A stretch of DNA of 64,000 nt from the NCBI GenBank assembly GCA_016787225.1, contig JAEUUY010000005.1, positions 1 through 64,000 of the forward strand, written 5' to 3'. A program made the position numbers and the translations under genes. The notes below the pieces were generated by a model. That model was not told the origin of the DNA. It made no database searches and saw nothing but the letters and a program-made list of their open reading frames with translations. This DNA is from Chitinophagales bacterium (lineage in GTDB: Bacteria; Bacteroidota; Bacteroidia; Chitinophagales; JADJOU01). Positions 3,040-5,656 of this stretch are shown piece after piece; the first letter of the stretch is position 1, and every line of letters starts with the position of its first letter.

Positions 3040-3417
3040 CTATTTTGAATTGATTTTAGGTGGCTCCCAGAGCTCCAATTTATTCCCATCACAATCATCG
3101 AGCCATGCGAATTTACCATACTCACTTTCTTCACCCATATTGATTTCAATATTTTTCACTTTTAATTTTTCTATTAATTTCTCTAAATCATCCACCATCC
3201 AATTTATCATATACGACTGGTGCGAATGACAATAATTGGTTGATTCTGGAAAAACCGAAAATACTTGACTCTCATTTGAATCTATCTGTGCTATAGGCAA
3301 AATCGTTCCCCAATCCTCCATTTTAGTATCTAAGACATCTGCGTACCATTTTAGCAAACGAGGTTTATCTTGTGATTTTATAAATACTCCACCCAAGCCA
3401 ATAATTTTACCACTCAT
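3040..3417 (-). CDS. VOC-superfamily (glyoxalase-like) protein
   Basis: A 125-residue protein with the paired beta-alpha-beta-beta-beta modules of the vicinal oxygen chelate superfamily. It starts IGLGGVFIKSQDKPRLLKWYADVL and ends with the typical FAWLDDCDGNKLELWEPP, whose Glu is usually a metal ligand. Members include glyoxalase I, dioxygenases and antibiotic-resistance proteins; the substrate cannot be inferred. It is probably the first gene of the minus-strand operon running down to 127, since a -7 element lies just upstream. Confidence 0.75.
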   Translation of the reverse strand: MSGKIIGLGGVFIKSQDKPRLLKWYADVLDTKMEDWGTILPIAQIDSNESQVFSVFPESTNYCHSHQSYMINWMVDDLEKLIEKLKVKNIEINMGEESEYGKFAWLDDCDGNKLELWEPPKINSK

Positions 3418-3451: not shown

Positions 3452-3481
3452 TTGAAATTATGATGGATTAACGTATATTTG
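3452..3481 (+). promoter_or_regulatory. Promoter of the candidate ncRNA
   Basis: TTG at 3452-3454, then 19 bases, then TATATTTG at 3474-3481. This fits the Bacteroidota primary sigma consensus (TTG, 17-23 bases, TAnnTTTG). The expected start is about 3485-3488, exactly where the left arm of the closing helix of the RNA begins. Confidence 0.65.
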
Positions 3482-3485
3482 CACT

Positions 3486-3697
3486 AGCCATATAGATTTA
3501 TCGCGCTTGATCTCTATAAATTAAACACATGACGGGTCAAATGTCTAAAGGTGCAATGGCGGACTGACGGTTCGTGACTTGTCCGAACTTCCTACGATAA
3601 ATGTAGGAACTACAGTCAGATATACAAAGTGCCTAACTAGACGACCTAAATCTTGTAAACTCGGGTTGATCATAGCCCTGCTATATGGCTATTTTTT
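3486..3697 (+). ncRNA. Candidate structured non-coding RNA, about 210 nt
   Basis: The region has its own promoter and ends in a helix plus U-tract. The ends pair perfectly over 11 bp (3485-3495 with 3681-3691), followed by six T. Nested inside are 3508-3512 with 3668-3672, a 9-bp helix with a bulge (3535-3538 plus 3543-3547 with 3638-3646), 3564-3568 with 3615-3619, and two hairpins: 3570-3574/3584-3588 and a perfect 7-bp one at 3589-3595/3603-3609. No open frame fits. The closed-rod shape and size recall 6S RNA, but the branched middle differs and I do not recognise the family. It has no hallmark of tmRNA, RNase P or SRP RNA. The next gene is an FAH-family enzyme, then metK. Confidence 0.65.
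3681..3697 (+). terminator. Terminator formed by the ncRNA closing helix
   Basis: The right arm CTATATGGCTA is followed by TTTTTT (3692-3697). Its pairing partner is the 5' end of the RNA about 190 bases upstream. A nearby alternative stem was not found, so intrinsic termination would depend on the long-range closing helix. Confidence 0.5.
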
Positions 3698-3723
3698 AAC
3701 AATTACTTTTCTTCACATTCTAA

Positions 3724-4332
3724 ATGAAAATTTTCTGTATAGGTAGGAATTATGTTGACCATATTCACGAATTGAAAAATGAAATTCCTGAATCAATGGT
3801 TATATTTATGAAACCTGCTTCATCATTGCATGATATTTCAAAGTCTTGGTCACTGCCAAACTTCTCCAAGGATATTCACTATGAGTGCGAACTCGTCCTA
3901 AAGATAAGCAAACAGGGTAAAAATATTCCATTAGAAGAGGCTTTCAATTATTATGAAGAACTAAGTTTAGGTATCGATTTTACAGCTAGAGATATTCAAT
4001 CCAATCTAAAAGCCAAAGGACTACCATGGGAAAAAGCTAAAGCTTTTGATGGTTCTGCACTATTAGGTCACTTCGTTGCTAAAACTAAATTTGATTTAAA
4101 AAATTTGAGCTTTTCGTTGATAAAAAATGGAATGATGGTTCAGCATGGTAATACCAAGCAAATGATTCATTCATTTTCAAGTATCATATCTGAGTTATCT
4201 AGGTATTTCACATTGGAAACAAGCGACCTCATATTTACTGGAACCCCAGCGGGAGTAGGACCCATTCAATCCGGCGATGCATTTATCGGTAAAATGGAAG
4301 ATTTGGAAATCTTTCATTTTGATGTAAAATGA
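3724..4332 (+). CDS. Fumarylacetoacetate hydrolase-family protein
   Basis: A 202-residue single-domain FAH-fold protein of the YcgM/FAHD1 type. It begins KIFCIGRNYVDHIHEL and contains MVIFMKPASSLHD, HYECELVLKISK (the E-x-E metal ligands), ARDIQSNLKAKGLPWEKAKAFDGSALLG and LIFTGTPAGVGPIQSGD. Related enzymes are Mg-dependent acylpyruvate hydrolases or oxaloacetate decarboxylases of aromatic or central catabolism. The protein is near the minimum family length and looks intact. It begins 26 bases after the end of the ncRNA, and metK follows after 70 bases with its own -7 element. Confidence 0.8.
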   Translation: MKIFCIGRNYVDHIHELKNEIPESMVIFMKPASSLHDISKSWSLPNFSKDIHYECELVLKISKQGKNIPLEEAFNYYEELSLGIDFTARDIQSNLKAKGLPWEKAKAFDGSALLGHFVAKTKFDLKNLSFSLIKNGMMVQHGNTKQMIHSFSSIISELSRYFTLETSDLIFTGTPAGVGPIQSGDAFIGKMEDLEIFHFDVK

Positions 4333-4402: not shown

Positions 4403-5656
4403 ATGCCATATTTATTTACTTCCGAATCCGTTTCCGAAGGACACCCCGATAAAGTATCTGACCAGATTTCAGATGCACTGATAGATCATTTTCTAGCTTA
4501 TGATGCTAACTCTAAGGTGGCTTGTGAAACTTTAGTAACAACAGGTCAAGTAGTATTAGCTGGCGAAGTTAAATCGAATGCTTACCTCGATGTACAATCT
4601 ATCGCAAGAGATGTAATCACTAAGATAGGCTATACTAAGAGTGAATATATGTTTGATGCTAGTTCATGTGGAGTGCTCTCAGCTATCCACGAGCAGTCAG
4701 CAGATATCAACCAAGGTGTAGAGCGCAAAAACCCTGAAGAACAAGGAGCTGGTGACCAAGGAATGATGTTTGGCTATGCGACCAACGAAACAGACAATTA
4801 TATGCCTTTAGCACTAGATATAGCGCATAAATTGCTTGAAGAGTTGGCTGTTTTACGCAGAGAAAATAACGAAATTAAGTATTTGAGACCTGATGCTAAA
4901 TCTCAGGTAACTATAGAATACTCAGATGATCATAAGCCAGTACGAATAGATACTATCGTGATATCGACACAGCATGACGACTTTGATGCTGACGAGAAAA
5001 TGCTCGCAAAAATCAAAGAGGATATGATAAATATACTCATTCCAAGAGTAAAAAAACAATTAAAACCTGAAATACAAGCGCTATTCAATGATAAAATTAC
5101 TTATCATATCAATCCAACTGGAAAATTTGTTATCGGTGGACCGCATGGCGATACAGGATTGACAGGTCGAAAAATCATCGTAGATACCTATGGCGGCAAA
5201 GGTGCGCATGGAGGTGGTGCATTTTCAGGTAAAGATCCAAGCAAGGTAGATAGAAGTGCGGCCTATGCTACTAGACATATCGCCAAGAATATGGTTGCTG
5301 CTGGGTTATGTGATGAGGTATTGGTTCAGGTATCTTATGCAATAGGTGTAGCCAAGCCATGTGGATTGTATATCAATACCTATGGTACTAGCAAGGTACA
5401 AATGAATGATGGTGAAATTGCAAGAAAAATAGAAGAGATTTTTGATTTAAGACCATATGCTATAGAGCAAAGATTGAAACTCAGAAACCCAATGTACCTC
5501 GAGTCTGCTGCATATGGACATATGGGTCGTAAAAACGAAGTAATTAAAAAGACATTCAATAAAGGTAAAGATAACGAAAAAACCATTGAAGTAGAGTTAT
5601 TTACATGGGAAAAGTTAGACTTTGTAGATAAAATCAAGTCTGCATTTTATTTATAA
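4403..5656 (+). CDS. metK: S-adenosylmethionine synthetase
   Basis: A 417-residue cytosolic enzyme that makes S-adenosylmethionine from methionine and ATP. It begins [22 protein letters not shown], with the catalytic His in GHPDK. It carries the two family signatures: [12 protein letters not shown] near residue 115 and [20 protein letters not shown] near 272, the P-loop-like glycine segment. The C-terminal half shows [11 protein letters not shown] and the family's terminal strand region. Length is slightly above the E. coli enzyme (384) owing to insertions typical of Bacteroidota. It is flanked by its own -7 element and a strong terminator, so it is probably monocistronic. Confidence 0.97.

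Follow-up and report, generated by a model that had tools for sequence, protein, structure and literature searches.

6S RNA traps RNA polymerase by mimicking an open promoter. In Bacteroides, 6S RNA and its pRNAs have been detected by dRNA-seq (PMC7366714), and 6S RNA has also been detected in Flavobacterium psychrophilum (PMC9723704). The Rfam families relevant here are the canonical 6S covariance model (RF00013, including E. coli ssrS and B. subtilis 6S-1), 6S-Flavo (RF01685, gathering cut-off of 85 bits) and Bacteroidales-1 (RF01693, gathering cut-off of 60 bits), the last of which carries the Rfam description '6S-Bacteroidales RNA suggested'. That Bacteroidales-1 is a 6S RNA is accordingly a suggestion, based on this description, on the transcriptome cited above and on homology to 6S-Flavo. 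No literature linking '6S RNA' with 'Chitinophaga' was found. The locus presented here would fill an apparent gap, namely a Bacteroidota genus whose 6S RNA escapes the current Rfam models.

The locus lies in a window of 64,000 nucleotides, which is the whole stretch of Chitinophagales DNA analyzed. We consider it very probable that this is the 6S RNA gene of the Chitinophagales lineage, present in single copy and transcribed on its own into an RNA of about 210 nt, which has diverged beyond the Rfam cut-offs. It is a new diverged relative of a known kind and not a new class. The first-pass annotation, made from the DNA letters, had proposed a free-standing structured RNA of this size between divergent genes, being either a diverged 6S RNA or a member of an undescribed class. 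The structured RNA itself is borne out by its fold and by homologues in four other genomes of the genus, and two-way profile homology supports the first identity while speaking against the second.

The RNA gene is placed at 3486-3696 (+), on the grounds of fold, homologues and profile matches. Its neighbors are divergent, with a VOC/glyoxalase gene at 3040-3417 (-) and a FAA-hydrolase (FAH) gene at 3724-4332 (+), beyond which the S-adenosylmethionine synthetase gene (metK) is located at 4403-5656 (+). The promoter claimed in the first pass can be read directly on the + strand and is kept in the genus: a TTG at 3452-3454, corresponding to the -33 element of a Bacteroidota-type promoter, is followed by a 19-base spacer and by the -7 element TATATTTG at 3474-3481, which is of the TAnnTTTG type. 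Among five genomes of the genus, seven of the eight columns of the -7 element are invariant and the TTG is found in four, the exception being L009 with TCG. The transcript probably begins at 3486 and ends at 3696, judging from the promoter, the closing stem and the T tract TTTTTT at 3692-3697 (+), where termination presumably occurs. In agreement with the earlier reading, no ORF of at least 60 aa overlaps 3452-3697. A standard sigma-70 scan flagged 3452-3479, without useful enrichment, and a terminator scan found nothing at the RNA locus since the closing stem is long-range. At gathering score Rfam gave zero matches in the window, and the tRNA/tmRNA search of the window was equally blank. A match to the snoRNA model snR77, overlapping the promoter (E 4.3), was attributed to chance.

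Folding of 3480-3700 yielded -60.2 kcal/mol, versus -45.1 +/- 3.8 kcal/mol for dinucleotide shuffles (z-score of -4.0), and none of the 200 shuffles was as good. The computed fold is a rod of about 200 nt with the landmarks of 6S RNA, i.e. closing stem, central bubble and apical stem; the bubble is asymmetric and holds a hairpin in its 3' side, while the apical arm is long and leads to a branch with two variable hairpins. All parts described below lie on the + strand. The perfect 11-bp helix that had been reported to join the two ends, followed by six T, is indeed present, pairing TAGCCATATAG at 3485-3495 with CTATATGGCTA at 3681-3691; a perfect helix of at least 11 bp was met in 1/200 mononucleotide shuffles of 3452-3697. 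Positions 3681-3690 of the 3' arm are invariant in five genomes, and across 15 homologues 95% of the cells of the closing stem are paired, with double-sided changes in 5/10 pairs. The 5' side of the central bubble (3496-3533) contains CGCGCUUGAUC(U/A)CUAUAAAUUAA at 3502-3524, in which all but one base are invariant across the genus. The 22 specified bases of CGCGCUUGAUCNCUAUAAAUUAA are invariant and at the same time mostly unpaired, a pattern that would fit a region serving as contact or template. The 3' side of the bubble (3648-3680) begins with AAAUCUUG, kept as AAAUC(C/U)UG in much of the family, and includes the hairpin GGGUUG/UAGCCC (3663-3678), with 97% of the cells paired in the genus.

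The inner helices listed in the first pass were likewise found in place. The apical arm is formed by its 5' strand at 3534-3558 (GGGUC, GUCUA, AGGUGC, UG) and its 3' strand at 3625-3647, and its helices (3-5) show double-sided changes in 14/18 pairs among the 15 homologues. The apical branch (3564-3619) consists of a CUGAC/GUCAG stem around two hairpins, one at 3569-3589 and a variable one at 3589-3609; for its helices (6-8) the corresponding count is 17/18. The latter hairpin is the perfect 7-bp TTCCTAC/GTAGGAA (3589-3595/3603-3609) noted before, and it is the most variable part of the RNA, with 2/17 columns invariant in the genus at 3590-3606. Compared with the genus relatives it is enlarged here (7 bp and a 7-base loop). 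The branched interior had been described as matching nothing that could be named, a statement that we can now correct: it matches the Bacteroidales-1 core AUGGCGG-RCY ... GAU(U)ACA with its variable apical hairpins. Sequence comparison places the AUGGCGG motif at 3556-3562, while GAUAUACA at 3619-3626, which includes an insertion in the window's genus, is the counterpart of the Bacteroidales-1 GAUUACA.

A BLAST search with 3480-3700 recovered the RNA nearly in full, once per genome, from four further genomes of the genus (79-87% identity), and it gave no comparable near-full-length copy in 56 more distant genomes. Within the window's own genome no second copy was detected by BLAST, the other matches covering 14-24 bases only. 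The four copies share the gene neighborhood of the window, with FAH and metK downstream on the same strand in all five genomes. Conservation follows the limits of the RNA, as 137/207 of its columns (66%) are invariant in the five genomes, versus 16/42 (38%) upstream of the promoter and 4/33 (12%) after the T tract. The absence of homologues with compensatory changes had been named beforehand as the outcome that would speak against the RNA, and both were found: in the genus alignment 11 pairs have changed on both sides and are still paired, exceeding all 500 shuffles. In an alignment of 15 sequences 92% of the cells are paired, with double-sided changes in 41/57 pairs, whereas slid controls reach 32-42% paired; this alignment was fitted to the structure, and its covariation count therefore leans toward the structure. 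The same layout nevertheless emerged, independently, when an alignment lacking the window's genus was folded. In G005, a genome of the same family, the RNA (L038, 1501-1690) is flanked by unrelated genes, and the VOC, FAH, metK and glycosyltransferase neighbors seen in the window are absent within 1.5 kb of it. The gene has thus moved within the family.

Regarding the Rfam models, RF01693 at a permissive threshold aligns over its full length (model positions 1-179) to exactly 3486-3696. The score of 14.7 bits lies below the cut-off and is not significant alone. In the five genomes of the genus the RNA locus was never the best RF01693 match and was listed in two of them (E 3.2 and 4.4). Since the best match in the window's genome falls elsewhere, the RF01693 match alone is insufficient. 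Neither RF00013 nor 6S-Flavo gave any match in the window's genome at E <= 10, and the RF01685 cut-off was not reached. Given its RF01693 score, we regard the RNA as a diverged homologue outside that family as now modeled.

The argument for common descent is based on reciprocal profile matches. A covariance model was built from the five sequences of the window's genus only, without Rfam input (R1), and its best match in the whole G005 genome (E 3e-10) was the very locus matched there by RF01693 (51 bits, E 1.6e-7). The window RNA and the G005 locus have in common the closing stem G(C/U)CAUAUAG ... CUAUAUG(G/A)C, the UCAUAGCC stretch preceding the 3' arm of this stem and the AUGGCGG core. R1 also matched 10/21 order-level Bacteroidales-1-like loci at E <= 0.0011, versus 0/15 controls. 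A second model (R2) comprised 15 sequences from the window's genus, G005 and other families of the order; it was trained in part on loci picked by Rfam's model, and only its untrained matches count as a test. Among these are two genuine Bacteroidales-1 genes above the cut-off (L093 and L094, 54.5 and 61 bits), as well as 6/9 above-cut-off 6S-Flavo genes (E 2e-6 to 5e-3), all untrained. These matches in both directions show common descent with Bacteroidales-1, and at the profile level they also show homology to 6S-Flavo.

The two Rfam families are themselves connected. RF01693 and RF01685 match identical loci in G110 (L095/L141), G188 (L096/L140) and G148 (L097/L128), and the G148 locus exceeds the 6S-Flavo cut-off. 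R1 matches L096 in G188, a place also matched by the 6S-Flavo model, and weakly the 6S-Flavo place in G022 (E 5). The common loci and the R1 and R2 matches therefore indicate that Bacteroidales-1, 6S-Flavo and the window RNA are one homologous set. Since they are homologous, the two Rfam families could be merged or placed in one clan; the window's locus supplies intermediates that link them, and with a merged model it could become possible to annotate 6S RNA in a far larger part of the phylum. R2 found at most one match per genome at E <= 0.1, including one in the window's genome, and under strict filters a match was obtained in 25/100 genomes of the order. In families f18, f19, f20 and f21 of the order, most genomes are without a convincing RF01693, RF01685 or R2 match, even at 100% completeness, pointing to loss or to a still more diverged 6S RNA.

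When the RNA is compared with Bacteroidales-1, the two are colinear from start to terminator and share closing stem, bubble and apical branch, as well as the core AUGGCGGRCY ... GAU(U)ACA together with AAAUCYUG and variable apical hairpins. The window RNA differs in that it has GAUAUACA where Bacteroidales-1 has GAUUACA, its apical arm is longer, it carries two hairpins at the apex, and its score is 14.7 bits against the cut-off of 60. With 6S-Flavo it shares the R2 matches to untrained above-cut-off genes and the R1 match to L096 in G188, whereas the 6S-Flavo model itself has no match in the window's genome at E <= 10. Like the members of RF00013, it measures about 200 nt and has a closing stem, central bubble and apical stem, and the hairpin at the 3' side of its bubble is also known from free B. 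subtilis 6S-1 RNA (PMC8876501). In contrast to RF00013, it lacks a covariance-model match, its closing stem is shorter and its apex is branched; relative to E. coli 6S RNA, it has a large bubble and a short closing stem of 11 bp.

The function proposed for this RNA relies on analogy. Holoenzyme binding and release by pRNA synthesis are taken from the 6S RNAs of E. coli and B. subtilis (PMC8876501), and we infer both for the RNA described here. It would mimic an open promoter, with the bubble binding RNA polymerase holoenzyme containing the primary sigma factor and AAAUCUUG on the bubble 3' side serving as a -10-like contact. Once nutrients run out, the RNA would keep the polymerase inactive. 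With NTPs returning, the polymerase would copy a short pRNA from the bubble 5' side (3496-3533) into the closing stem, and pRNA synthesis would open this stem and release the enzyme. As expected for such a role, the RNA is an independent single-copy gene, and searches of the genome by BLAST, RF00013, 6S-Flavo and R2 revealed no second 6S gene. It is the best 6S candidate of the genome because RF00013 and 6S-Flavo are without a match and R2 has a single one, although another, very diverged 6S RNA may exist elsewhere in the genome.

The alternative that survives best, although we regard it as improbable, is that the RNA descends from Bacteroidales-1/6S-Flavo and has lost the 6S role in this genus, for example by binding core polymerase like Ms1 or by acting in some other way as an RNAP-associated RNA or as an sRNA. 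Such a change would fit the strong divergence from the two Rfam families, the short closing stem, the insertion that the genus carries in its core motif, and the enlarged variable hairpin; furthermore, Ms1 provides a precedent for a partner change among 6S-like RNAs (PMC9130861). However, the 6S landmarks have been retained, there is one locus per genome, conservation in the genus is high on both sides of the bubble, and RF00013 and 6S-Flavo have no match elsewhere in the genome. It is still less probable that we are dealing with an undescribed class of structured RNA resembling 6S in outline only: although the score is under every Rfam cut-off, the reciprocal profile matches fall on the same loci and extend to genuine Bacteroidales-1 and 6S-Flavo genes on which no model had been trained. 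The reading with the least to recommend it, and a very unlikely one, is a cis-regulatory leader for FAA-hydrolase and metK downstream. The RNA does stand upstream of both on the same strand in five genomes, with metK hinting at SAM sensing, yet it closes with a stem and T tract of its own before the FAH start, the columns past the T tract are not conserved (4/33 invariant), the G005 homologue adjoins different genes and no SAM riboswitch family in Rfam matches the locus. A SAM-type metK leader was rejected on the own terminator, the non-conserved spacer and the other neighbors in G005.

Returning to the 6S RNA reading, an alternative helix can be drawn across the bubble between GCUUGAUC (3505-3512) and GAUCAUAGC (3668-3676), which excludes the 3' hairpin at 3663-3678. 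Counterparts are seen at about the same place in the Bacteroidales-1 loci L093 and L094 (GAAACUC/GAGUUUC) and in G005. It is conceivable, though rather doubtful, that by means of this helix Bacteroidota 6S RNA switches between two states, throughout the lineage, to let go of the polymerase; such a switch, if true, would be unlike both the extended hairpin of E. coli and the collapse helix of B. subtilis. When the duplex energies were compared with shuffles, most homologues were not above chance (window p = 0.36), the sole cases with p < 0.05 being L058 and L096.
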